Source: a virus. Taken from it: 23,671 nt of DNA. The position numbers and the translations under genes are program-made. The DNA lies in the IMG/VR virus record IMGVR_UViG_3300032050_000828, positions 1 through 23,671 of that record, one strand, 5' to 3'. Below are positions 1 to 16,063 of the stretch, in pieces. Position 1 is the stretch's first letter, and every line of letters begins with the position of its first letter. The notes beneath the pieces are model-generated. The model was not told the DNA's origin. It was given only the letters and a program-made list of their open reading frames with translations, and did not search any database.

Positions 1-1292
1 TCATAATAACCAGATTCATTTGCTGGTAAATTATATGCTGTACCATCATCCCCTTCATAATACCACTCATTAAATTTATTATCAAATTTTATTTTTCTAT
101 TTTGACCACTTAAATCTTGATATACATAATTTGGATCATTATAGTTAATTCCATCTGCAGCTTTAGGTAAAGATCCACCATTCACATATTTTGCAAAATC
201 ATTTACACTACCAAATTTACCTTTCTTCTTTTTCTTAGGATTGTGATCCATACCACCTTCTTTTAAAATTTGATATAACTCATCAATATTAGATTGACCA
301 CCCATCTCAAACATAAAGTTAGGTGTAGTTTCACCTGCTCTATCATATGGTAAATATGTTTGAGCTTGAGGAAATGCTTCTCCACCTGCTTTCATTGCAC
401 CCAATGCACCTTGCATTTGCACTTGCAAATTTGCAGGTAATTGATTTATAGGAATTTGCCCATTCATAGCTTGTTGCATAAGCATACCTTCTTTATCAGA
501 TTTACCATACAAATCTGAATACATTGGATTATTTATTGGATTACCCATTCCCATCATAGAATCACCCATGTTTCCAAAACCACCAAGGAAATTGCCTAAA
601 TTACCTAGACCAGCTTTAGGCAAAGATTGCCCACCTGCTTCATATAAGTCATCCATCATATAAGCAGTACCACCATTAGCTTTATAATACCAATTAAGAT
701 TTTGAGCTTGTGGTGATGGATTATAATTGTCAAAACAATCAATGCAAGGTTGGCCACCCATCTCGGCCATCCCCATTTGCTCTTGATCTTGTTGCATCAT
801 ATCTTGTTCATCTTCTTGAGATACTTGTTCTTCTTGAGATGCTTGTAATTCTTTAGCAACAGCTGTCACTAATCCTTGGGCCTGTTCAACTGACATTCCC
901 ATTTTTACAAGTTCTTGCATAATTTGTTTGGGATCAGCACCTTGCTGAAGCCCTTGAGCAACCATACTGATTATTTTTTGTTGTTGATCAGAAGATGCTC
1001 CACCTTCTTGAGCGTATTGCATTGTATTCATTTTATCTGAGTTTGAATAATTAAATGTACCTAATGAGTTAGCAGGTATTTCAACTGCCATGTTTCCTGG
1101 AACCACTACATTCTCTTGACCAGGTTGAGCAAATATAACATCTCCTGTTGGACTTAGTATGTAAGTGTGATCTATTTGATTCTTAAAAGTAAGAGGAGTA
1201 TATCCATCTCTGCCTTTAATGATTGCACCATTTGTAGGATCTACATCTAGTCCTTGCTGGTCTGTTCTAAAGTGTATTGGTTTTCTATCCAT
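1..1292 (-). CDS. Virion-associated protein with repeated GGSLPKA headers (3' end cut by window edge)
   Basis: The frame is open from an ATG at 1292 to the window edge, giving 430 residues (start MDRKPIHFRT) with no stop, so the C-terminus is missing. Only 8 bases separate it from the stop of the upstream polyprotein gene. Residues 1-95 look like a small beta-rich domain. Residues 96-180 are rich in Gln, Glu and Met and probably helical, followed by a CxxC at 183-186 (CIDC). Residues 230-310 are rich in Gly, Met and Asn. The protein carries the header seen in its neighbour: GGQSLPKAGLG at 220-230, GGEAFPQAQ at 303-311 and GGSLPKAADG at 372-381. A lysine run lies at 353-357. I recognise no enzyme domain in the visible part. 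Position and shared header suggest a packaged cargo or internal virion protein; this is inference. Confidence 0.75.
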   Translation of the reverse strand, partial: MDRKPIHFRTDQQGLDVDPTNGAIIKGRDGYTPLTFKNQIDHTYILSPTGDVIFAQPGQENVVVPGNMAVEIPANSLGTFNYSNSDKMNTMQYAQEGGASSDQQQKIISMVAQGLQQGADPKQIMQELVKMGMSVEQAQGLVTAVAKELQASQEEQVSQEDEQDMMQQDQEQMGMAEMGGQPCIDCFDNYNPSPQAQNLNWYYKANGGTAYMMDDLYEAGGQSLPKAGLGNLGNFLGGFGNMGDSMMGMGNPINNPMYSDLYGKSDKEGMLMQQAMNGQIPINQLPANLQVQMQGALGAMKAGGEAFPQAQTYLPYDRAGETTPNFMFEMGGQSNIDELYQILKEGGMDHNPKKKKKGKFGSVNDFAKYVNGGSLPKAADGINYNDPNYVYQDLSGQNRKIKFDNKFNEWYYEGDDGTAYNLPANESGYY

Positions 1293-1300
1293 TTTATTTA

Positions 1301-4300
1301 TTATTTATAGCCTCTTGCTTTTAAGGCATTTATTATTGTATTATACATTTGATCATCTATATCTGCTTTTGCATCCACTTTAGTTTTTTTATCGTTTGGA
1401 TCATTAATTATTAGCTTACCATCTTTGTCTTTTTTACCTTCATAATATTTCATATAACCATCTCTAATTTCTTTATGAGTTATAATATCTTTTAGCTTTA
1501 AGTTATATGTATCTAATAGTTCACTAATAGCTTCTACAGTAGATTCTAATTGATTAGGTGTAAGAGGTGGTGCATAACCACCACTATCATTTCCTGGATT
1601 TTGAAGTTCTATACCATATGAAAAATCATTTACATTATCTCTATTTTCATATCTAGAGTGACCTGCGTGAGCTGTTACTTGTTCTGGTGAAGCATAAACT
1701 CTTCTTGTACCATTTGCTAATACTGCAAGATGTGCATCATTTTCACCAGGTCTCATAAATTGATTATGTAAATCTATATCAGATTGTGTCCAATCACCTT
1801 TTGCATCAGGTTTAAATGCAGTCCAATGTAATACAATTTTTTTCATTTCATTTTTTAAAGCATGTCCTTTTTTATAACTTTCATCTTTTTCAGTTCTAAT
1901 ATTAGGACTTTGATAGTATTCTACTTTGTGTCTGCTAGGGGTTGTGCCTGTACCTGCAATATACAATACATTACCTGCTACACCACCTGAATTTAATGCA
2001 TCATATTCTTTTAGTCTATCAGAGGTAAAAGTTTTATCTTTAAATGAAAGTCCTTTTGAATAAGTTCCATTATCTGTTGCATAAACAGTAACATATTTTG
2101 AATTACCTTTTATCTTCTTAAATTCATTTTTAATATGTTTAAGACTACCCATTACAAAGTATGTCTTTTTAGTATCAGGGTTTTGCATAATAAATTTACC
2201 ACCTTCTACAGAACCAAAATAATCTTCATCACCATTAGTTCTTGTCATGATATTGATACTACCTTTTTTTTCAGTCTTCTCATCATCTGATAACATATTA
2301 GTAATAGGTATTTGATAATTATTATTACCATGATCTAAATCAGGTTTTGTTCTAGATTTACCATCTATTTCATCAAACGATACCACCTTGTTAGAAAATG
2401 TTTGTGAAATTAATACATCCTTTCTGTTTTTAAAATCTTTGAATGTACCAGCTACAAAATTTCCATTTGCATCAACTCCAAAGTATGTGCTATTATCAGA
2501 TGCTGCCTTATACTCACTTGGAGCAAGGAATGGTCTAAATGCAGTTATTATTGCACCATCTGATTGGAAAGGTGTATAGTCTCCTCTATTTCTAACTTTA
2601 AATTTCATATTAGCTAAATTTATATTACCTGCTAATAAAGTTTGACCTGTTTTGTTTGTTACATTTGGTATTTCAACTTCTTTTAATTGAACTTTATTTT
2701 TGTTAAGTTTGTTATAATATTCAATTGTTCCTAGTGGTTTAGGTGTTTGCTTTTCACTAAAATCTATTTTAACTGCATCAGGATCATCTCCACTATACAT
2801 TTTATATTTTCTAGTTAATCCATTTATTGCAAGATTTTTATAGTAGTTAGCTACGTCAGCTGCTTCATTATAAGTATTTTTAATATCTCCAACTACAGTT
2901 GCTAAATAATCTTCTGTTCCACCAACAAGAGTTGATAATTCATTTTGAATGTTTTCAGTCAATGAAGGTTTTTGTTTAACTACTTTTGAACTAGAATTAC
3001 CTTTTACATAACCATTAAAAGGATCAATGTTTATTTTAGGTGATGCAACTGATCCACTTGACCAAAGATATTGTAATGAAGGTTCTTGTTTTTTAGGAGT
3101 AGGATTATATCTTTGTTGATAGTTATATTGATTAGATTTTAACAATCCTAAAATATCTTTTTCTTCATTGCTATAACCCATCATTTGATATGTGTTATCC
3201 AAAAACCCATATAAGTTTTTCTTAGCAATATCATTATCTGAAATATCTAGCCAATTATCTTTTCCTTTATCTGTCATATAAACCTTATCACCCTGTATCA
3301 AATAATCTGCTCTAGGTGAATAATTATTGATAACCATGTTTTTATGATAGACAGGTTTAATATCAGCTAACTTTAAAGGTCGATCATACTTCATTGGTGT
3401 TTGAAGTATTTTATCATTGGGAATACCAGTTTGTGCTTTGGGTAATGATCCACCTTGAGCATATGTTTTATAACCTATTCTACCATCTACTGCTTGTGAG
3501 TTTAATTTATTATACTCATGAGCACCTATACTATGCCATTCATTTAATTGATTAGGACTTGAAAAAGCAGCAGAAGGACTATTCCAATTTTTAAACTGTT
3601 GGTTGCTTAAAGGAAAATCACCTCTTTGTTGTACATAGTATTTATCTCCTTCTTGTTTAGTTTCAAAGTATCTATTAGGTTTACCATGCACCATGCTAAA
3701 AATAGACATATCATTAGGATCTGTTCCATAAATAGATTTACCAAATCGTGCCTTAGATAATAAACCTCCTTGAGCTTTAGGTAAAAACTCACCACCTCTT
3801 TCTTTATAAGTTGATGGATCTACCATATCAAGGTTAATTCCAAAATCCTTTAAAAAGAACTCTACTGTTCCTTTATTTCTTTCACGATTTGGAGCTTTCT
3901 TAGTACCTCTAGCATATTGTTTTGCAATAATATTTCTATATTTTAATCTATCAGCATCTGACTTTGCTTGATTATAATCAACAATTGCATCAAGAAACTT
4001 AGGAAAAGCTTTTGAATATTTTTCAGTATCTTTTTGAAAAAAGTCTGGCCCTAGATTATACACATAATCTTCTATAAGTAATTGTTGATTATAAGGTAAT
4101 GTATCAAATGTTAGATTTCTATCTTTAAATCTTTTATTATATCCTTGTACAGATTGATCATAATGAGAATTAAAATCATCTTTCATTAATTTAATAGCTT
4201 GATCATCTGTAATTCCTTTTGCAAATCTTTTAGTTTTTACATCTTCAGGTGTTAACTTATGACCATAACCTATTGTAGGAAGCCCACCTTCATGAGATTT

Positions 4301-7300
4301 ATAAGGCATCCATACATTTAATTTAGAATCCCAACCCTTTTTTACACCATTCTCTTGATATTTTAACCAATCATAATAATCATTAAGCTGTCTAGTTTTT
4401 AATTTTTCTTTATCTACAGTGGATTGGTTGGTTTGAGGAGAATCTGAATCATTAACTAAATTATTCCAAAGAGACTTACCAGCAAGCTTGAGAAAATCAA
4501 TGTTTCCAAAAAGAACAGGGTTGGTCATAATAGCTGAACCAATTGTACCAAGATCACCTATAAATGAGTTTCCTCCATCTTGTTTTTTAGCAGGATAAAA
4601 CTTTTTATTAGAAGTGTTGGTAACATCTGCATCTGTTAAACGAACATACTGATCACTAGCATGTTGTCTACCATACCATGTATTTCCATAAGCTGGACTT
4701 AATGATCCATCAGGACCTCTATGATACCAATAACCTGTTGCTTTATCATAAACAGATCCTTGTTTTTGATCTTGAGATCTAGACCAATATGTTACACCAG
4801 GTGTATCTGCTGTATATGTATTTTTATAATAAAAATCTCTACCATTATTTAGCAACACTCTTCTCTCTTGTTCTGAAAGTTTATAAATATCTTTTTTATA
4901 TTTATTCCATTCATTATCTAAATTTTGTTGTAAGGTAGGTGTCCAAGCATCTGTTTTAATATCTACATTATATGAACCTCTATTTGGTAATCCTGATTGC
5001 CCTATGCTTTTTAAATATTGATCAAGCATGTATACTCTAGGATCTCTTCCTGCATTATACATAAAATCTCCAGCAGATGCTTTTTCCATTGCTGTAGGAA
5101 ATGCTCCAAGTTGAGGATAATATTTATCCATGTACCAATTTACAGCATCATCTTTACTAGCACCAACTGGTAATGCAGGATTACCAAAGTTAGATAAACC
5201 ATAACCACTAGCACTACCTCTATTATCTTCCCATGTCATTGAGTTGTATCCCATGTTCTGCACACTATCTCTTGGAGATACTTGTCCATACTTCCATTGA
5301 TATTTATCTAATGATCCACCTTCTCCAAAAAACTTATTTTGCAACATTTTAAATTCCATATCACTTAATATGGCGGCAGCATCTCTTACTTTAGCTCCTT
5401 TAGTTCCTATAATAGGAGTGATTAAATTAGGACCTACTCTTAAAGTTTTATCTTCAAACAAAACACCAGATGGAATTTGATTTATATCAAAATCAGGAAA
5501 ATATCTACTGTAATTTTTTCTGAGTCTTGATGTATTTCTTAATTGGTTTACTTGGTTATTTAAACCTATTGGCATAGGATCTGCAAAAACTTTGACATAG
5601 TAAGGATTATTACCACCATATCTTTCTCCTATCCATGTAGGGTCTTCAGCAAAATAAAGAATGTCTTTATTTGATCCTTGTAATAATTGATCATGCCCAC
5701 CACTTCTTCTACCTCTGTTAATAACATTTTCAGGAGCTGTGCTTGTTCCCATTATTTCTGCAACATCATAAGGGTTATCTGGATTTTTTCCTAAGCTCGC
5801 CATCCTCTTTCTAAATAAAGGATCATTTATAATTTCAGGACTTACATCCACAACTCTGTATAAAGGTCTTTGATTATACTGCGTTTGTAACCAACTTTCA
5901 AAACCTTCTGGAGATTCTGGCAAATATTTAATTAATCCTTCCTTTTGATAACTTTTAGCTAAGTTATAAGCACTTAATACATCTTGAGAAATTGGTGTTG
6001 ATTTTTTAAATAACTCACTAAATGATTTTGGAAATATTCCCATTTGAGGATTGACTCCAAAAGCCATCCTACCTGCATTATCAAATGCATTAACAAATCT
6101 TTTAGTACCTTTTAAACCTGTTCCAACAAAAGGAAGCACATCAGCTGCATCCCATCCAAAGTTTGCAAAATCTTTATCACCTCTAATAGGTCTATCACCC
6201 ATAAATGTATTTGAAAGATTAATTGCAGATTGAGCAGGTGCTCCTACAAACATATCATAAACCCATTTACCAGCAGGATTCACAAAAGGATTACCATATG
6301 CATTTTCTATTGCTTCATTAGTAGTATTAAGAACATTTTGAAAAGTTGCTCTAGTAGATCCTTCAGGTGCTAATTTAGTATCATCTCTAAATTCACCTTG
6401 TGCAGGATTATAATATTCATAATTACCGTAACCAGGTTTATTAGTATATATTTTAGATTCTTTTTGAGCAGCTTGTGATTTCTTAAAAGCTTTTGCTTGT
6501 TCTGCTTTTTCAATGCTACCATATGTTGCAATATCTTTAGCCACAGATTGTGCAGCTACATTTTTTGGAGCAACAGTTACAGTACTCCTTACATTAGCTG
6601 GATTAGTTTGCCCTAATGCTTGATTAATTAATTGAGCACTTACAGATCCTGTAAGTTGATGTTTAGGAAGTGAGCCTCCTTGTTTAGCATATTGAATATT
6701 ATCAAGCATTTGATTTTGATCAGGCTCATTTCTAGATATGGTATTTAACATATCTATAATTTGATCATCTGTATAAACACCTCTAAGTTGTTCTAATGCA
6801 TCATAACTACTATCAGTTAAAGGTTTATAAGAGCCAAACATATCTATAGTAGCCTTTTCTGTAAAAGGATTATAAATACCTTGATTTTTCATTTCAAACC
6901 TTAATGCATTTAATCTAGCTCTTGTTTCAGTAGGACTAGCTACATAATAATTAAATTCATCCATGCCTACCATTTTAGGATAATGACCAAACATATTAGG
7001 TTTTTGTCTTTTACGAGCAGTATTGTATGCATATTTCCCCATCAAATTTATATCTGAAATAGGAATTAACGGACCACCAAAATCACTTGCATGACTTATT
7101 TCATGAACATCAGTATCTAAAAGATTATCTTTTGAAAATGGTGTATTGGTTATTCTAGAGATAGGAGAATTTCTAATTTTAGAATCATCAGTTGGATAAT
7201 AACCCAATGCATTATAAGCATTTGATCCTTCGTATCCAATAACCTCCATATTATCTGATGTTCCATAACTATCAAGATAATTTCCACTTGTGTCATACCA

Positions 7301-8665
7301 ATCCCGAAGATCATGTTTCCAATATTTTTGCTTTAATTTGGGATTTATATTTCTTGCAAAATTCCAATATGATGAAGGATACTTATCCAATTCAGTTCTA
7401 CTAAATCCAGATACACCTTTATCTTCAGGATATTTTTCATCTATCTCCTTACGTGAAAATTTAACATCTATATTATTAATATTTTCTAATCTTTTATCTC
7501 TTATTTGTTGCCAAAATGGATCTGTAGAGTAAAATGAATATGTGTCAGTATCAAATGACAAAGGTCTATGATTAGTAAAAAACTGTTCCCATCCAGTTGG
7601 ATTATCTTTTTGAACAGATCTTTGTAACATTTGTTGAGCCATTGGAGAATTTGTCCAATCTCTCATAAAGTCTCTTCCTTGTTCTACTAACTGATCATAA
7701 TAGTTAACTTCTACACCTTTCATCATACAAGTTTGAAATTCTTCATTCCATACTTGACCTTCAGGACATTCTCCTTTATTTCCAGATTGAGCTCTACGCA
7801 ATGAGCCCCCTTGTCTATATCCATAATCTTGAGCATATGGACTAGGCCCTTGAAATTGCTTTTCAAAGTTTCTAGCTTCTCCTTCTAAAGTCCAAGGAGT
7901 ATCATACATTGCAGGGTTAACATATCTATTATAAACTACTTCAGGAGAAGCAAAATTGAATGATGGATTGTTAGATAAAAATTCATCAGTAATATATTTT
8001 TGATCTAATGCTCTTCTATTCCAATATTGCATTGCTGCATCATTCCCTGAAGGAATAGTTGGTTCTTTTAAAGGACCAGGATAAAATTCTGAATAACCAG
8101 AGTCTCCATTTATGTCTTGCCAGTAATGAAACATTTCATGAGGAACAACTCCTGGTATATGTTTATCTGCATCTGATAAATGTATAGTCTTAGTTAAAGG
8201 CTCATAAAAGCTATTACCTTGATTTGTAGTATCAAAGTATACACCACCTTGACCACCTGTTTGACGAACACCCTCTTTCATTGAATCTAAAAACAAACTT
8301 TTTGGAGATGCAGGATCTGCAGAATGCTGTCTCATAAGTTTATAAACTATATCATACTGAAGTCTTTCTGCAGGAGTTAACTGATTTGTAACATATAAGT
8401 ATGTATCTAAATTCTCTGGATTCCTATCTGCTTCTGGATTTACCTTAGGCATATTTGAAGTATCTCTTATACACTTTTTTGTAACAGGATCTTTAATCCA
8501 TCCTGTAGGACAACCACCTGTTTGTGTTTCTTTCTTTACAGGTTTTTTTGGTGTATTAAAATAATAGTCTACCATACCTTGCTGAGCTTTAGGTAATGGC
8601 AATGCACCACCTGAGCGCATTACTCTCTTTTGTTGGATAAGGTGAAGAAGCTTGTCAGTTTTCAT
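1301..8665 (-). CDS. Giant multi-enzyme virion polyprotein with seven header-delimited modules
   Basis: This 2454-residue protein starts at the ATG overlapping the upstream stop by 4 bases (ATGA), which supports translational coupling and this start. Variants of the header GG-S-L-P-K-A-Q-x-G divide it into modules: 1-283 with HEMFH at 176-180; 284-660 with HEISH at 521-525; 661-1113 with an ADP-ribosyltransferase-like region at about 925-1100; 1114-1360 muramidase-like; 1361-1621 lysozyme-like with TIGYGHKL at 1464-1471; 1622-1735 unrecognised; 1736-2454, a long unrecognised region ending in an Amidase_2 domain from about 2265. There is no signal peptide and no obvious long membrane helix. 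It lies directly downstream of the muzzle gene, where related crAss-like phages encode ejected cargo proteins. The likely role is wall degradation and host-directed activity from the virion. Module reading is by eye; the amidase and lysozyme calls are firmest, the transferase weakest. Confidence 0.85.
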   Translation of the reverse strand: MKTDKLLHLIQQKRVMRSGGALPLPKAQQGMVDYYFNTPKKPVKKETQTGGCPTGWIKDPVTKKCIRDTSNMPKVNPEADRNPENLDTYLYVTNQLTPAERLQYDIVYKLMRQHSADPASPKSLFLDSMKEGVRQTGGQGGVYFDTTNQGNSFYEPLTKTIHLSDADKHIPGVVPHEMFHYWQDINGDSGYSEFYPGPLKEPTIPSGNDAAMQYWNRRALDQKYITDEFLSNNPSFNFASPEVVYNRYVNPAMYDTPWTLEGEARNFEKQFQGPSPYAQDYGYRQGGSLRRAQSGNKGECPEGQVWNEEFQTCMMKGVEVNYYDQLVEQGRDFMRDWTNSPMAQQMLQRSVQKDNPTGWEQFFTNHRPLSFDTDTYSFYSTDPFWQQIRDKRLENINNIDVKFSRKEIDEKYPEDKGVSGFSRTELDKYPSSYWNFARNINPKLKQKYWKHDLRDWYDTSGNYLDSYGTSDNMEVIGYEGSNAYNALGYYPTDDSKIRNSPISRITNTPFSKDNLLDTDVHEISHASDFGGPLIPISDINLMGKYAYNTARKRQKPNMFGHYPKMVGMDEFNYYVASPTETRARLNALRFEMKNQGIYNPFTEKATIDMFGSYKPLTDSSYDALEQLRGVYTDDQIIDMLNTISRNEPDQNQMLDNIQYAKQGGSLPKHQLTGSVSAQLINQALGQTNPANVRSTVTVAPKNVAAQSVAKDIATYGSIEKAEQAKAFKKSQAAQKESKIYTNKPGYGNYEYYNPAQGEFRDDTKLAPEGSTRATFQNVLNTTNEAIENAYGNPFVNPAGKWVYDMFVGAPAQSAINLSNTFMGDRPIRGDKDFANFGWDAADVLPFVGTGLKGTKRFVNAFDNAGRMAFGVNPQMGIFPKSFSELFKKSTPISQDVLSAYNLAKSYQKEGLIKYLPESPEGFESWLQTQYNQRPLYRVVDVSPEIINDPLFRKRMASLGKNPDNPYDVAEIMGTSTAPENVINRGRRSGGHDQLLQGSNKDILYFAEDPTWIGERYGGNNPYYVKVFADPMPIGLNNQVNQLRNTSRLRKNYSRYFPDFDINQIPSGVLFEDKTLRVGPNLITPIIGTKGAKVRDAAAILSDMEFKMLQNKFFGEGGSLDKYQWKYGQVSPRDSVQNMGYNSMTWEDNRGSASGYGLSNFGNPALPVGASKDDAVNWYMDKYYPQLGAFPTAMEKASAGDFMYNAGRDPRVYMLDQYLKSIGQSGLPNRGSYNVDIKTDAWTPTLQQNLDNEWNKYKKDIYKLSEQERRVLLNNGRDFYYKNTYTADTPGVTYWSRSQDQKQGSVYDKATGYWYHRGPDGSLSPAYGNTWYGRQHASDQYVRLTDADVTNTSNKKFYPAKKQDGGNSFIGDLGTIGSAIMTNPVLFGNIDFLKLAGKSLWNNLVNDSDSPQTNQSTVDKEKLKTRQLNDYYDWLKYQENGVKKGWDSKLNVWMPYKSHEGGLPTIGYGHKLTPEDVKTKRFAKGITDDQAIKLMKDDFNSHYDQSVQGYNKRFKDRNLTFDTLPYNQQLLIEDYVYNLGPDFFQKDTEKYSKAFPKFLDAIVDYNQAKSDADRLKYRNIIAKQYARGTKKAPNRERNKGTVEFFLKDFGINLDMVDPSTYKERGGEFLPKAQGGLLSKARFGKSIYGTDPNDMSIFSMVHGKPNRYFETKQEGDKYYVQQRGDFPLSNQQFKNWNSPSAAFSSPNQLNEWHSIGAHEYNKLNSQAVDGRIGYKTYAQGGSLPKAQTGIPNDKILQTPMKYDRPLKLADIKPVYHKNMVINNYSPRADYLIQGDKVYMTDKGKDNWLDISDNDIAKKNLYGFLDNTYQMMGYSNEEKDILGLLKSNQYNYQQRYNPTPKKQEPSLQYLWSSGSVASPKINIDPFNGYVKGNSSSKVVKQKPSLTENIQNELSTLVGGTEDYLATVVGDIKNTYNEAADVANYYKNLAINGLTRKYKMYSGDDPDAVKIDFSEKQTPKPLGTIEYYNKLNKNKVQLKEVEIPNVTNKTGQTLLAGNINLANMKFKVRNRGDYTPFQSDGAIITAFRPFLAPSEYKAASDNSTYFGVDANGNFVAGTFKDFKNRKDVLISQTFSNKVVSFDEIDGKSRTKPDLDHGNNNYQIPITNMLSDDEKTEKKGSINIMTRTNGDEDYFGSVEGGKFIMQNPDTKKTYFVMGSLKHIKNEFKKIKGNSKYVTVYATDNGTYSKGLSFKDKTFTSDRLKEYDALNSGGVAGNVLYIAGTGTTPSRHKVEYYQSPNIRTEKDESYKKGHALKNEMKKIVLHWTAFKPDAKGDWTQSDIDLHNQFMRPGENDAHLAVLANGTRRVYASPEQVTAHAGHSRYENRDNVNDFSYGIELQNPGNDSGGYAPPLTPNQLESTVEAISELLDTYNLKLKDIITHKEIRDGYMKYYEGKKDKDGKLIINDPNDKKTKVDAKADIDDQMYNTIINALKARGYK
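1304..1873 (-). other. Polyprotein C-terminal N-acetylmuramoyl-L-alanine amidase (Amidase_2/PGRP-like)
   Basis: Residues 2265-2454, the last part of module 7. The amidase pattern is well kept: zinc-binding His2280 in IVLHWTA, HLAV at 2312-2315, AHAGHS at 2332-2337, GIELQNPG at 2351-2358, His2397 in ITHKEI, and a K-x-D pair (Lys2429, Asp2431) in place of the usual K-x-D-P-G. These give three plausible zinc ligands (His2280, His2397, Asp2431). It would cut the bond between MurNAc and the stem peptide. Its catalytic positions all look intact, making it the most secure enzyme call in the polyprotein. Confidence 0.8.
3803..4585 (-). other. Polyprotein module 5: phage lysozyme-like domain
   Basis: Residues 1361-1621, preceded by a degenerate header (KQDGGNSFIG at 1361-1370) and a hydrophobic, possibly amphipathic stretch at 1368-1402. 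The lysozyme signature is clear: Glu1438 in KYQENG, then HEGGLPTIGYGHKL at 1458-1471, and YNLGPDFF at 1536-1543 in place of the usual N-x-G helix. Compared with T4-type enzymes there are about 11 extra residues between the catalytic Glu and the Thr of TIGYGH, and the usual Asp position is His1458/Glu1459. I expect peptidoglycan cleavage at entry. Confidence 0.7.
4586..5326 (-). other. Polyprotein module 4: muramidase-like domain
   Basis: Residues 1114-1360, header GEGGSLDKYQ at 1114-1123. Residues 1144-1162 (TWEDNRGSASGYGLSNFGN) resemble the catalytic Glu and following beta-hairpin of lysozyme-fold enzymes, with Glu1146 the candidate acid. GDFMYNAGRDP at 1199-1209 resembles the helix after the active site in phage lysozymes (usual form: D-x-x-x-N-x-G). 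It ends with aromatic residues at 1310-1345. It is more diverged than module 5, so activity is uncertain. Confidence 0.45.
5327..6685 (-). other. Polyprotein module 3: possible ADP-ribosyltransferase-like domain
   Basis: Residues 661-1113, header GGSLPKHQLTG at 663-673. Residues 690-800 are low-complexity and helical. A stretch at 836-860 (AADVLPFVGTGLKG and following) resembles the linkers that precede toxin domains in polymorphic toxins. Residues 925-1100 have the order expected of an ART fold: Arg937 in LYRVVD, a Ser-Thr element at 974-976 (TST), ILYFAEDPTWIGERYGG at 1002-1018, which resembles the usual strand-helix with a trailing Tyr-Gly, and Glu1071 in VLFEDKTLR. The match is by pattern only; another nucleotide-binding or toxin fold is possible. 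Confidence 0.4.
6686..7816 (-). other. Polyprotein module 2: second HExxH metallopeptidase-like
   Basis: Residues 284-660. It repeats the plan of module 1: a header (GGSLRRAQSG at 286-295), a two-cysteine element (CPEG at 300-303, Cys313), then HExxH (HEISH at 521-525). A downstream Glu in SPTETRARLN (577-586) could be the third zinc ligand. It is longer than module 1, with about 200 Tyr- and Asp-rich residues before the motif. Likely an old duplication of module 1, though sequences away from the motifs have diverged strongly. Confidence 0.6.
7817..8665 (-). other. Polyprotein module 1: HExxH metallopeptidase-like
   Basis: Residues 1-283. The header is at 18-30 (GGALPLPKAQQG from 19). A small two-cysteine element follows, CPTG at 52-55 with Cys65. 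The HExxH motif is HEMFH at 176-180, followed by YWQD. A possible third zinc ligand lies in the ELxGEAR-like stretch at 261-265 (EGEAR), which fits a gluzincin arrangement of HExxH plus a downstream Glu. I cannot name the peptidase family. Target unknown: host envelope proteins or the polyprotein itself are both possible. Confidence 0.6.
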
Positions 8666-11600: not shown

Positions 11601-13905
11601 TAGTAGAAGGATTTAAAGTAGTAAGTTCATTTCCTTCAGAGTTCATTGTTGGAGCTCCTACCCAAGATCCTGAACCAGCAGGACCTAAAAAACCTCCTGC
11701 AAAAGTACCACCCAATGCTGCAGCATATGCTAATGCTGCTTTTCCACCAGCACCACCTGCAACTCCAACAGCAGTTGTTAAAGGAATTGAAGTAGGGTCT
11801 TTTGCAGTGTTACCTTTCACTGTTGTCTTTTTTCCAACTAAAGCTAAAATAGCAGAACCAAGTCCTAATAGTAGACATCCTATAAATGCACCTTGTGATG
11901 GAATTTTATGTTTAGGATGACCATAAGGTGGTGTAAAAGTTCCTATAGAATTACCATAGTATTCTGAATAAACTCTTACCTCATTTGGATTTAAATAAGT
12001 TCCTCTAAAATTAAAATCAGGAGTATGAAATGTAAAGTAATCTTTTCTATATAGTGTTATAGGATTCTTAGTGTCATCATGCTCTTGTGGTCCTGGAGGA
12101 TTATACCATGTGTTTTTGTATAAATAATAATCAGGATCTAAACAATTGTATGGATAGTTCTGATATAGTGCTTTTGCATTAGGTTGATTAGGTATGTCAT
12201 ACTCAAACATATTATTAATCAAACCTTTTGCAATAACTGTTTTATTACCAGTTCTTGATCCTCTTAATATTTCATATCCAACAATTGATTTAATAACATC
12301 TCCATTCTCATCAAGAGGTGGTTTTATATTTTCAAATTGTATACCTAATAATTGAATTGATTTATTCGCATTATCATAAATTGGAGAAACTATGTCATCT
12401 GGAAATTTATGATGCCTAATGTATTGTCCACACAAATCATAGTCACTAATTTGTGAATTAGGATAAGGGGTTGTAGTAATAGTACTCCAAGTATATTCAC
12501 TAGGATTCCAAATTCTAGGTTTGTTGGGATATCTATTTTCAGATTCCCAATAAGCCATATATCCTTTGTTTCTAATTTTTGCACCATCTGCTGTTGAGCC
12601 AGATCCTCCAAGTGAAATCCCTGTGTTATAGACTCTCCACTTTTCAGCTGATGTAGCTCCATTATTATCATAAGGAAGAACATCAGGACCACTAACTGTT
12701 ATGTTATCCCAGCCTGGTCTAATAGGTCTTCCTGGAATATGATAAGATGCAGATTTATCACCTGTCTTATAAGCCCATCTAATAAAGAAAGAATATATCT
12801 CATCTCTCATATATCCTGTTTCATTATTACCTTTTACATAATAATCTGCAGGATATTCTACTTGTACCCATTTTGTAACAATTTGATTTGCAAGAGGCTG
12901 ATAATTAAAATCAGCTTTGCTTTTCATTCCAGTTCTTAATAGATAAAAGTTTAATAAAAACATCTTGTCAGATGTTTCATATATTGTCTGATTAATTGGA
13001 ATATCTTCAAGTGGTACTTGAACTAATGTATCATTGTTATTATCAATGTGTACTTTAGTTTGAGAAGTATTAAAAAAACCAACACGCTTTGCATTAGTTA
13101 CAGAATTAATAGTGCTTATTAGTACAACTTCATATTCCTCAAAGTTTGTATCTATTTGAGTAAATGTTAAATCTATTGATCCACCATTATTCTCATGATC
13201 CCAAATACTTACAATATTACTCGGCATAAAGTAATTACTCACTCTTAAACCATTGATGCTATAAGCAACTACTACTTGATATGATCCATTAAATAATGTA
13301 CCTGAACTATTAGATCTTACAATGGAGAAACAAGGTAGATCTATTAGATAGTGTAATCTTGTTTTATCACAATCTAAAACAGGAGGATCATAATAAATTG
13401 GCTCAGGACAATCAGGATTAGTTGTATCATATTGTTTAATCAACCAAGGAATTTTATCAAGATTAATAGCTCTATCTGGATTTAATCCATCTGCAAAATA
13501 AAATGTGTAAGTACAATCAAAATTAGATTGAGTAACTCCTGTAATTAAATTTGATCTTTTAAATCCTAAACAACTAGATGAAATATATCTAGTATACTCA
13601 CAACTATTTTCATCAAATATTCCAATCTCACTTGTTATGTCATTTGTAGAACAAACAAACCAAGTTGTCGCATCTCTGCGAACAATTCCAATAACATCAA
13701 AATTAGTAGATGTGCAATATTGAGTAGATGGCTCATTTCCAATAGTACCCCCATCTCCTAAGTTAGAACTTGTCATAGCATTAATTGCATTAGTCCAAAC
13801 TCCCTCAGGAACATAGCTATCATTAAAATCTTTGTAAAGTCCTTTAGTATAAGTATTAGACTTTGCATCAATTAAATTTTGAGTGTTATCTTGCTGTTTA
13901 GCCAT
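8662..13905 (-). CDS. Muzzle/stabilization-type giant tail protein
   Basis: This 1747-residue protein fits the large conserved tail protein of crAss-like phages, called the stabilization protein in genome papers and the muzzle in the phi-crAss001 virion structure. The N-terminus has the family look: LIDAKSNTYTKGLYKDF, then a Trp-Asn-Ala-x-N element and GNEPSTQYC. The C-terminus has the family's basic stretch (PLQRKKFRHYGNRVILRRLQ, then SGSEKM). Much of the middle is beta-rich. Residues 673-691 (up to VGKK) form a membrane-helix-like segment, 712-746 are very rich in Gly and Ala, and 777-797 are again hydrophobic. The start overlaps the upstream peptidase-like gene by 8 bases and the stop overlaps the polyprotein start (ATGA). 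It would form the distal tail assembly through which cargo and DNA leave. Confident on family, less so on the exact structural equivalent. Confidence 0.8.
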   Translation of the reverse strand: MAKQQDNTQNLIDAKSNTYTKGLYKDFNDSYVPEGVWTNAINAMTSSNLGDGGTIGNEPSTQYCTSTNFDVIGIVRRDATTWFVCSTNDITSEIGIFDENSCEYTRYISSSCLGFKRSNLITGVTQSNFDCTYTFYFADGLNPDRAINLDKIPWLIKQYDTTNPDCPEPIYYDPPVLDCDKTRLHYLIDLPCFSIVRSNSSGTLFNGSYQVVVAYSINGLRVSNYFMPSNIVSIWDHENNGGSIDLTFTQIDTNFEEYEVVLISTINSVTNAKRVGFFNTSQTKVHIDNNNDTLVQVPLEDIPINQTIYETSDKMFLLNFYLLRTGMKSKADFNYQPLANQIVTKWVQVEYPADYYVKGNNETGYMRDEIYSFFIRWAYKTGDKSASYHIPGRPIRPGWDNITVSGPDVLPYDNNGATSAEKWRVYNTGISLGGSGSTADGAKIRNKGYMAYWESENRYPNKPRIWNPSEYTWSTITTTPYPNSQISDYDLCGQYIRHHKFPDDIVSPIYDNANKSIQLLGIQFENIKPPLDENGDVIKSIVGYEILRGSRTGNKTVIAKGLINNMFEYDIPNQPNAKALYQNYPYNCLDPDYYLYKNTWYNPPGPQEHDDTKNPITLYRKDYFTFHTPDFNFRGTYLNPNEVRVYSEYYGNSIGTFTPPYGHPKHKIPSQGAFIGCLLLGLGSAILALVGKKTTVKGNTAKDPTSIPLTTAVGVAGGAGGKAALAYAAALGGTFAGGFLGPAGSGSWVGAPTMNSEGNELTTLNPSTKKPGILPDIMSFITQMNLIFSIGGFMLAQGFGNAMKLVMELLPWRQYALQYNSHGFYSSKKNPQNQNYRRQIKAARYVESGVQVFDGTYTVNNLFRPNTAIINTIGTLVNPSTIDQSRRTVNQLKAWTTTNNNFTLNISSYYVGLKLDLKGAYGQLSSITQIPVSTCVEKIVYTKNYPHTSSVYFRGDVYINRYTEKNTFPLFNQWLFNMPDGTDFDYKLYANVAYPRYWSTFEGIDFNDISINTSAFPRLSLNPLRFIRDFARKFAKLVTNPVGTITSWVLGPSKLYHLDRDPNSYRLRIQDMLKKTFYIKNGYFYLFVNGVKDFYCESEINLASRDYGALPSEQFYNPYGNTNLYELFRTDIIKVPEFFKYDYSLSVSKASINNTSWSSVLPRSYDPDIPASCFEYYPARMVYSLQQQYEQSRDNWRIYLNNNYKDFENVITNVKPINRTGSAIFFDDATPTTINGVDELQTSTGNRITIGDGGLFNQPFQALVNADLELEYGSCQSTRSVINTTYGIFYMSQRNGKIMQLAGNQIVDISMNGMRYWFAENLIYSLTKSFPNYDLTDNPVKGIGCQTTYDNQYEIVYFSKKDYKLLPGIEVGTDIEYMPDTKNFRVTSYSYNFKVTYGSSTTQLQDGYQISGNINGYDLATCTYTATVPTNAGIESFVNCVATEIEKAPNIKKAFPYISDGSFKINITLIDSKVPANIQLNLINKFVVTLIPINTSNKTLIDPSDTNYFEDCSWTISYDPKTKMWISFHDWHPNLEFSTNDHFYTIKGNDFWKHNVLCNSYNNYYGVNYGWEIEFPVNTGASVTTIKSVEYYLEVFKYNTGCVDRYHVLDGNFDQALIYNTEQTSGLLNLHIKPKNNPVALLNYPKINLDSIDIHVAKEENKYRFNQFWDATRDRGEFNGLQITNFITECNGYRKNLNPQAVNYAKSPLQRKKFRHYGNRVILRRLQSGSEKMNLKVVTTKETLSPR

Positions 13906-14290
13906 TTTGATTATCTACTTTTTCAAATTCTTTTTTGACTTTTTCACTGCCTATAAATTTATAGAATTCTTCACACAGAAACCCCATCAACCAAGCACAT
14001 GTTTCTTCATCTGTAATATCTCTATCTTCTGCTATTCTTTTTGCAGCATGAAATAACTCATGACCTATTGTGTTATGATTAAGAAACTTAGCATCTATCA
14101 TTACAATGTATAAGCCACCATCTACAGTAATAGTAATACCTTCTGCTTCTTCAGCTGCAGTACCAGGAACTAATGTTCCCTTTGCATATTTCTTTTGTAA
14201 ATACTTTTCTGACTTTCCCATCTCATTTGTTATTACAAATAAGATAGAACAATTGAATGTATTTACTCTTACTTTTTTAGTAATTCTCAT
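13898..14290 (-). CDS. Small HExxH putative metallopeptidase
   Basis: A 130-residue protein with HELFH at 77-81 in a TIGHELFHAAKRI context, followed by DEETCAWLMGFL at 94-105, where Glu95 or Glu96 could be the third zinc ligand. This HExxH plus DEE pattern is typical of small zinc peptidase-like phage proteins. It has no signal peptide; residues 14-21 are a short hydrophobic strand. The start overlaps the end of the ring-protein gene by 14 bases and is preceded by a good Shine-Dalgarno-like sequence. It lies between tail-ring and muzzle genes, so it may process or fold virion proteins, including the polyprotein two genes downstream. That role is inference, and enzymatic activity is not shown. 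Confidence 0.7.
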   Translation of the reverse strand: MRITKKVRVNTFNCSILFVITNEMGKSEKYLQKKYAKGTLVPGTAAEEAEGITITVDGGLYIVMIDAKFLNHNTIGHELFHAAKRIAEDRDITDEETCAWLMGFLCEEFYKFIGSEKVKKEFEKVDNQNG

Positions 14291-15389
14291 AAGGTCCCCT
14301 TACAGTTTTAAACCCACCATACCACGCATAGCTATTAAACATATTATAATACTTAGCATACATTGCTTTTCTATTTTTCTCCCACATTCTCTTTAGTTCA
14401 CCAAAGTCAGGAGTATTAATAAAGCTAAGAGCATTTGTTCTTGCAGGTCTAAGCTTAGCTTGTATAAGCTGTAACTTTTGACTAGTATTCTCACCATTTA
14501 AAAATAAGTTCTCAAGTATTCTTTCTTTAAGAGCATATTCATAATAGTCATTAACTACTGGATGATCAAGCACTAATAAATTACCTTCATCATCTTCCAT
14601 TACAGATTCATAGTTAATATATACTCTACCTTCTTTAAAATTAATAGTATGAATAAATCCATCTCTAATTTTAAGTCTATAATTATAAGAACCTACATTT
14701 CTTAAGTTACACTCTGGTTCCCCATAGTTATATGGTAAAATCTCAATAGGAACTGGTCTAGGAAATTCTCTAATTAACCCTGGTCTTGTCTCTGTAATCT
14801 TACAACCATCTGGACAATTGTCCACAGAAATAGAACAATTGGCTACAATGTTAGCAGCAGCAATAATGTTAATTCTTGCACCTGCGTAGTGTTCAAATAC
14901 TTTAATCTTTACTTGATCAGGATTGATAATTACATATTCAAAGTTTACATAATCTTTACTTGAATTTTGAACAGTAAGTACAATATTAGTTGAAGCTAAA
15001 TTATGAGTTACAATGTTATCTCCAACAGATAAATCAGCCACTTGAATCAATGGTCTTGCATTTGTAATCTCTGCAAGTTTTAACATTTGATCATACATTG
15101 TCTGAATCTGTGATGATACACAACTTGTATATGTATCATTACCAACCCCACACAACATTGCAAAATTCATTACATAAAAATCAGCAGGAAGTTTAGCTCT
15201 GCCATCTTTTACATCAATCATTTTACCCCTTGATTGATTAATCTTTAAACCAAGTTCATAATTGATCTTAATTGCAATCTTTAATAATTCTTGAGGATTG
15301 ATAAAGTTATCCTGATCATAAGTGTAGAAATCACTTCTGACAGAATTCATTAAATCATCAAAGTTTCTATATTGGAGTTCTGTCTTCAT
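14277..15389 (-). CDS. crAss-like ring-type tail protein with inserted beta-sandwich domain
   Basis: A 370-residue protein whose N-terminus (QYRNFDDLMNSVRSD, then KINYELGLKI at 41-50 and KLPADFYVMNFA at 67-78) matches my recollection of a conserved crAss-like structural protein, one of the proteins that stack as rings below the portal. Residues 125-178 (NIVTHNL onward, TNIVLTVQ) look like a beta-sandwich module common in phage tail fibres, apparently inserted. CSISVDNCPDGC at 185-196 is a Cys cluster shared with the family, followed by RPGLIREFPRPVP. The start shares one base with the upstream stop (TAATG). It would form part of the tail barrel between portal and muzzle. Which numbered ring it is cannot be told here. 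Confidence 0.75.
   Translation of the reverse strand: MKTELQYRNFDDLMNSVRSDFYTYDQDNFINPQELLKIAIKINYELGLKINQSRGKMIDVKDGRAKLPADFYVMNFAMLCGVGNDTYTSCVSSQIQTMYDQMLKLAEITNARPLIQVADLSVGDNIVTHNLASTNIVLTVQNSSKDYVNFEYVIINPDQVKIKVFEHYAGARINIIAAANIVANCSISVDNCPDGCKITETRPGLIREFPRPVPIEILPYNYGEPECNLRNVGSYNYRLKIRDGFIHTINFKEGRVYINYESVMEDDEGNLLVLDHPVVNDYYEYALKERILENLFLNGENTSQKLQLIQAKLRPARTNALSFINTPDFGELKRMWEKNRKAMYAKYYNMFNSYAWYGGFKTVRGPYENY
14295..14301 (-). promoter_or_regulatory. Shine-Dalgarno-like ribosome binding site
   Basis: On the coding strand AAGGGGA ends 4 bases before the ATG at 14290. The neighbouring starts I checked (13905, 15389, 16063, 8665) lack a comparable purine run and instead sit on stop-start overlaps. 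It supports the 14290 start and may let the small peptidase-like gene be translated independently of the ring-protein gene it overlaps. Confidence 0.5.
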
Positions 15390-16063
15390 TACTTAGTGTT
15401 GCTTAAGAAGTCTTGATTAATATCTTGAGGAACTTGTAAACTTGTAGTTAAATCTTTCATTACACTTTGTTCCATTTCTCCATATAAGTACATAGGTACT
15501 GAGAATGGCTCATCTTGTCTATAAATACAATCATGGTCTGTATCACAATTGTATTGACCAATACCAGATCTAAATAATCCTTCCACTCTAATTGCTGGCC
15601 AATCTACACTAGGTACATAGATATAGTCATTTACAATGTAGTAGTAAGGAGTCTTGTTATATCTAAATGTCTTCTGCTTAATCATAGCTTGATAAGTAGA
15701 AGGAAAAGTTAAAGTAAGTGGAGTAGTTCCATCTATACTTGTAATAGATCTAATGATAGGACCATAACTACCCTCATACGCAGGGGGAATTTTATCCTTG
15801 CTTCTCTTAATAGTACAGCCTGATTCTATGCAAAAACAACCAGTGTCTGCTTTATCTACATCTATTAAACAGAAATAGTCTAAGGTGTGAAATATATTGT
15901 TGTACTTTCTAAGTACACCTTTATCATCCTCTCTTTTAATGAGCCATGATACGTGTTTGAGAATTAAAGAAAAGATATATCTATCTGTAACAAAGGCATC
16001 TATGTTTACAGATTTAATCTGATTCCTAATTCTACTAATTGCTTCTGATACTGTTGCTACCAT
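15389..16063 (-). CDS. crAss-like ring/tail-tubular-type protein
   Basis: A 224-residue protein beginning VSEAISRIRNQIKSVNIDAF, an amphipathic helical opening I associate with a conserved crAss-like head-tail ring protein (called tail tubular or P22 gp4-like in some annotations). It has several paired cysteines (GCFCIESGC at about 75-83; YNCDTDHDC near 172-180), a KTFRYNKTPYYY and YIYVPSVDW beta-hairpin region, and a helical end (YGEMEQSVMKDL). The start forms TAATG with the endolysin stop, and its own stop forms TAATG with the next gene, so the three genes are likely translationally coupled. It would sit at the portal-tail joint or in the tail tube. Family assignment is from pattern memory. 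Confidence 0.7.
   Translation of the reverse strand: MVATVSEAISRIRNQIKSVNIDAFVTDRYIFSLILKHVSWLIKREDDKGVLRKYNNIFHTLDYFCLIDVDKADTGCFCIESGCTIKRSKDKIPPAYEGSYGPIIRSITSIDGTTPLTLTFPSTYQAMIKQKTFRYNKTPYYYIVNDYIYVPSVDWPAIRVEGLFRSGIGQYNCDTDHDCIYRQDEPFSVPMYLYGEMEQSVMKDLTTSLQVPQDINQDFLSNTK

Follow-up and report, generated by a model that had tools for sequence, protein, structure and literature searches.

A short LPKAQ-type peptide at module seams of probable cargo proteins in crAss-like phages

The window analysed here is the whole of a 23,671-nt stretch of IMG/VR record IMGVR_UViG_3300032050_000828. It belongs to a crAss-like phage, as its tail gene block encodes ring proteins 1 and 2 as well as a muzzle. 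The genes considered lie as follows:

3..1292, minus strand: gene A, first 430 of 922 aa of a muzzle-proximal cargo-slot protein without known domain
1301..8665, minus strand: gene B, modular cargo-slot protein of 2,454 aa
8662..13905, minus strand: gene C, muzzle homologue (phrog_37948, E 9.5e-70, and phi4:1 virion protein gp042), without the header described below
13898-14290: gene D, HExxH protein of 130 aa, directly before the muzzle
14277..15389, minus strand: gene E, crAss ring protein 1 (CrAss_Ring_1, E 6.3e-9), without header
15389..16063, minus strand: gene F, crAss ring protein 2 (CrAss_Ring_2, E 9.3e-17), without header

Transcription proceeds from the muzzle gene C to B and then A, which runs off the left edge of the window and is present at its full 922 aa in the sister contig G002. 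Downstream of the complete A, the sister contigs encode a 1,088-aa protein in the cargo-1 slot, a 967-aa protein, and giants of 1,555, 5,242 and 2,267 aa; the 5,242-aa ORF, which lacks the header, lies within the polymerase slots of loci L013-L014 (G002 8864-24592). For crAss001, the available text of the paper on its structure places cargo 1, cargo 2 and the RNA-polymerase subunits at the matching positions (PMC10172136). In phi4:1, nearly all of the matching slots are annotated from virion MS/MS. Judging from gene position and this MS/MS annotation, A and B are probably particle proteins.

The first-pass annotation had reported that A and its neighbour B share a short peptide, here termed the header, whose consensus is [FYK]-[KQR]-x-G-G-[SE]-L-P-K-A-Q-x-G with a core of roughly GG-x-LPKAQ-x-G. 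We scanned the window with a 16-column profile built from 204 training instances, the window's own phage being left out:

603..635, minus strand: header in A, GGQSLPKAGLG (residues 220-230), 16.1 bits
360..386, minus strand: header in A, GGEAFPQAQ (residues 303-311), the weakest copy, 11.7 bits
150..179, minus strand: header in A, GGSLPKAADG (residues 372-381), 26.3 bits
8576..8611, minus strand: N-terminal header in B, GGALPLPKAQQG (residues 19-30), with a two-residue insertion
7781..7810, minus strand: header in B, GGSLRRAQSG (residues 286-295), 20.2 bits
6647..6679, minus strand: header in B, GGSLPKHQLTG (residues 663-673), 19.3 bits
5285..5320, minus strand: header in B, GGSLDKYQWKYG (residues 1116-1127), 16.3 bits
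3764..3796, minus strand: header in B, GGEFLPKAQGG (residues 1624-1634), 23.0 bits
3740..3769, minus strand: second header in B overlapping the previous one, GGLLSKARFG (residues 1633-1642), 14.8 bits
3425..3454, minus strand: header in B, GGSLPKAQTG (residues 1738-1747), full consensus, 33.8 bits

All three peptides claimed for A are present (11.7-26.3 bits), although only the middle one had been placed exactly; the other two had been drawn two residues (to 641) and one residue (to 182) too far. The weakness of the middle copy, GGEAFPQAQTYL, reflects the substitutions L to F and K to Q as well as the absence of the closing G. The claimed recurrence in B is borne out by six profile sites (14.8-33.8 bits) or, with the N-terminal copy, seven; the latter reached 9.8 bits in the first profile only and falls below 8 when this phage is left out. 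None of the window's other nine genes contains a header (best score 0.2 bits), and the reversed window proteins yield nothing above 8 bits with the same leave-out profile. The cargo-1-slot protein of the sister contigs carries one further header, GGTLRRAQDGE. As had also been proposed, A and B have no domain in common: the top BLASTP match between them is the header itself (E 0.11), and nothing is significant. In G002, 99.99% identical elsewhere, two stretches of approximately 200 bp are absent from gene B (window 3286-3489 and 6135-6334), one of which holds the full-consensus header, and B is split there. The similar lengths of these gaps suggest an assembly fault, a real variant also being possible.

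The header is far from unique to this phage. A DNA pattern for GGxLPKAQxG retrieved at least 119 stretches from IMG/VR, whereas reversing the peptide left 2 and scrambling it left 5, and 142 in-frame instances occur among the matches listed. The muzzle family is present in 43 of 50 header contigs. Across 21 related contigs (697,138 aa), 77 matches retain at least 6 of the 8 fixed positions, while neither the reversed motif nor shuffled proteins produce any. When genes are numbered from the muzzle in the 19 near-complete relatives in which it could be located, the four cargo slots that follow (+1 to +4) hold 69 of 75 matches in just 12.7% of the protein (80,839 aa); because the contigs were picked for carrying the motif, these numbers show where the header is located and not how frequent it is among crAss-like phages. 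The RNA-polymerase slots (+5 to +8; 129,565 aa) and the muzzle proteins (37,549 aa) contain none, the 25 genes upstream of the muzzle contain five in 143,135 aa, and the remaining genes contain a single match in 245,638 aa. Thus, the proposed enrichment is evident among probable virion proteins, and the header, rather than being equally frequent in non-virion genes, is nearly absent outside probable virion cargo. The original observation is borne out, and more strongly than could be seen from the window by itself.

All five upstream matches fall in small basic Lys/Gly-rich proteins near the capsid genes, which could possibly be DNA-binding head proteins. Small Lys/Gly-rich proteins combining LPKAQ-type headers with K-x-GG repeats are found at L207 (13545-16245) and also in G005 and G008. 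Most headers are internal; 12 lie within 60 residues of the N-terminus versus 4 at the C-terminus, with the N-terminal distances being approximate, since the gene calls of the relatives are simple ATG ORFs. A cultured handle is provided by Leptolyngbya phage Lbo-JY46, recorded from a cyanobacterium, which encodes a crAss-type muzzle and whose cargo-1-slot protein starts MKIRIIGLPKAQIG, a header at the very N-terminus. Our literature search returned nothing relevant on either LPKAQ or Lbo-JY46. We dropped the idea that hosts use the motif as well: 257 Gb of bacterial genomes, both strands, gave 62 pattern matches against approximately 60 expected by chance (calculated for a pattern with 15 fixed and 3 two-fold bases), with one clear case of a long in-frame ORF. 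This 1,139-aa header ORF lies on an AT-rich contig filed in a Pseudomonadales MAG (L295), which looks like a misbinned phage contig.

The header is a real short linear motif. Third-position identity of its codons is 0.53 compared to 0.49 expected from the background of the same genes, and synonymous codon use at background level indicates that selection acts upon the peptide and not upon the DNA. On these grounds, we rejected a DNA-level recombination site.

Within B, the headers are interspersed with several recognizable modules:

7772..8215, minus strand: first HExxH (zincin-like) module of B, approximately residues 151-298, motif HEMFH
6686..7156, minus strand: second HExxH (zincin-like) module of B, approximately residues 504-660, motif HEISH, with homologues in a dozen loci
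4028..4306, minus strand: lysozyme-like module of B (residues 1454-1546), narrowly missing the curated cut-off for Phage_lysozyme (E 4.2e-4)
1466..1852, minus strand: amidase module of B (residues 2272-2400), Amidase_2, E 3.8e-12

Header proteins in general include LysM, YkuD, SLT, Amidase_2, lysozyme-like, NlpC/P60 and SET modules; the SET domains, found in three header proteins, are unusual in phage cargo. The header marks seams at which such modules are swapped, both between phages and between the genes of one cluster. A clear example is the cargo-1 gene of locus L038, in which a header connects a cargo-1-type domain (65% identical) with a downstream homologue of B's first HExxH module (38% identical, E 4.5e-26). 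In a set of 128 non-redundant header proteins, local homology has its interior ends at headers 2.7 and 3.2 times as often as expected and, with the headers masked, 147 homology boundaries fall near headers versus a permutation mean of 85 and maximum of 115 (300 permutations); both tests carry a bias, as unmasked alignments can run into the header and masked ones can end at the mask. Direct comparison of flanks gives a clearer picture: 25 pairs share only one flank and 6 are alike on both. Consistent with a linker location, an AlphaFold2 model of residues 1-300 of the cargo-1-slot protein (24 sequences) has pLDDT of about 90 or more over residues 41-190 and below 50 over the header stretch 194-228, right beside the well-folded domain. 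For a segment of B, modelling gave a mean pLDDT of just 50, which is poor; its headers lie in low-confidence parts, and the model adds little.

Given such mobility, one could imagine the header to be a mere flexible linker, spread by descent along with the modules it borders and read by nothing. That header-bounded modules move between proteins, and that the header is both Gly-rich and disordered, would be in keeping with such an origin. However, phages that have diverged widely retain a near-exact LPKAQ although its codons and flanks vary freely, a degree of constraint that a linker does not need, and copies also occur in the small basic proteins near the capsid genes. We therefore regard a passive seam as quite improbable. 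The occurrence of a near-exact header in otherwise unrelated proteins instead suggests recognition by one common partner, and the header is probably read in trans, as it recurs in unrelated cargo, resides in linkers, is often present several times per protein, and is sometimes N-terminal. The first-pass annotation had likewise favored a signal read in trans over common ancestry of a domain. Its sharing by domain-unrelated proteins, the peptide-level selection, and its concentration in cargo all support this view, except that headers also move with modules between genes, as in L038, so shuffling contributes to their spread besides any such signal.

As for the reader, a shared protease, chaperone or packaging factor had been put forward. 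A processing site would imply that a peptidase of phage or host origin cleaves the header, either after GG or after Q, so that a polyprotein releases its modules within the maturing particle or, once ejected, in the periplasm. Headers sit in linkers where modules meet, do so in several proteins, and have some eight residues under constraint, all of which would suit such a role. There is also precedent: the available text on polyvalent phage proteins states that these are thought to be cut by zincin domains and that P1 DdrB is cut prior to packaging (PMC5512222). HExxH motifs are in fact enriched in the cargo slots (2.1 vs 0.83 per 10,000 aa), with two residing in B. Nevertheless, 8 of the 19 genomes have headers and no HExxH in these slots (the other 11 have it), and cargo zincins were accordingly rejected as an obligate reader. 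Gene D was likewise rejected, as a search of 50 records found this small zincin family in the present phage only. Indeed, no obligate peptidase or chaperone was found among the header-bearing genomes, and no peptidase is common to all of them. Furthermore, N-terminal headers separate nothing, and the available portion of the crAss001 structure paper mentions neither cleavage nor a protease (PMC10172136). A T4-type prohead-protease site finds no match either, with the peptide missing from the major capsid protein and all upstream matches lying in small basic proteins. Two further proteins are each found in 13 of 21 genomes: a DUF2201 metallopeptidase/VWA-like protein (L238 16694-17857) and an AAA-type ATPase (L254 12240-13499). 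Processing by the host or by an unrecognised peptidase is a serious rival, if on balance an unlikely explanation.

A general packaging factor does not fit readily. The cargo-2 and RNA-polymerase slots are devoid of headers, though their counterparts are present in phi4:1 and crAss001 virions. Accordingly, the header is at most a signal for one class of cargo, perhaps the class that acts first at the envelope. It is also conceivable that the header aids the unfolding of cargo and its passage through portal and tail, or that it sets the order of ejection. The available text on crAss001 describes its cargo gp45 as modelled as one chain through the tail, with constrictions below 50 angstroms (PMC10172136), and header proteins carry entry enzymes and not the polymerase. 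On the other hand, gp45 has no header by profile. Its ordered segments 214-245 and 425-552 (L317 16988-19516) start near GG at 209 and 427, a proximity that may be due to chance with 21 GG positions listed; as candidate headers, both sites fall under the profile's threshold. We consider a role in threading highly improbable.

Our first choice is a loading or docking tag, ahead of a processing site and, in turn, a passive seam. We prefer it because no obligate peptidase accompanies the header and because N-terminal copies separate no modules. We envision that the header, sitting in the linkers of modular cargo proteins encoded directly after the muzzle, would be recognized in trans by an inner surface of the particle, most likely the portal, the tail lumen or the capsid, and would thereby load or dock its module. 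The modules that meet at the seams, among which wall-degrading enzymes and HExxH domains are frequent, are exchanged with the header as their border, and a newly gained module would become cargo simply by gaining a header. We would assign this reading a probability of roughly 0.4. Besides the header-free cargo-2 and polymerase slots, two observations weigh against it: just half of the cargo-slot genes (38 of 75 in the 19 relatives) carry a header, and the internal copies would also suit a processing site. The broader proposition, that crAss-like phages employ one exchangeable peptide code, recognized by a single inner surface of portal, tail or capsid, to turn enzyme modules into particle cargo, is more tentative still and perhaps doubtful. 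We know of no plug-in system for injected entry enzymes described in tailed phages. If the header does predict one cargo class, cargo lists for hundreds of uncultured phages could be drawn up from sequence, while the header would both indicate which protein reads it and reveal the exchange of entry enzymes between phages. How crassviruses take in, retain and release protein in such quantity is the question this bears upon, one that the header makes testable in a cultured relative.

Among known systems, the nearest by position is the crassvirus cargo pair gp45/gp46, which, like the A/B region, lies between the muzzle and RNA polymerase in the available description (PMC10172136); unlike header cargo, gp45 has no LPKAQ headers. 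We tried and rejected an identification of the 1,088-aa cargo-1-slot protein as gp45, since it has no match to crAss_CARG1 (PF25725), which gp45 itself matches at 2.3e-66. A direct hhalign comparison of the two gave E 0.13, and the 1,088-aa protein has no Foldseek/PDB match; it is related to phi17:2 gp41 (E 8e-5). Encapsulin cargo-loading peptides are short, disordered, Gly/Leu-containing sequences, mostly at the end of the cargo, that are recognized by one shell. As in that case, unrelated header proteins share only a short peptide that is enriched in cargo, whereas the header is mostly internal, repeated and located at seams, and no encapsulin system is present here. The T4 capsid targeting sequence is an N-terminal peptide of otherwise unrelated internal head proteins that is removed by the prohead protease. 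Like it, the header is a short peptide that unrelated, probably internal virion proteins share and that is probably read in trans, but most headers lie within the chain, and we found no protease of that kind. In polymorphic toxins, a conserved pre-toxin peptide forms the border at which variable modules are exchanged. The header appears analogous in this regard, differing in that the toxin motif forms one border before the C-terminal toxin and headers occur many times per protein and in several proteins. Lastly, polyvalent phage proteins are very large, multidomain and of the injected type, combining zincin domains with mixed enzymes (Iyer et al. 2017, PMC5512222). The available text of that study describes no shared seam peptide and B's modules are mainly wall-directed, but B resembles these proteins in uniting Amidase_2, lysozyme-like and two HExxH modules within one polypeptide.
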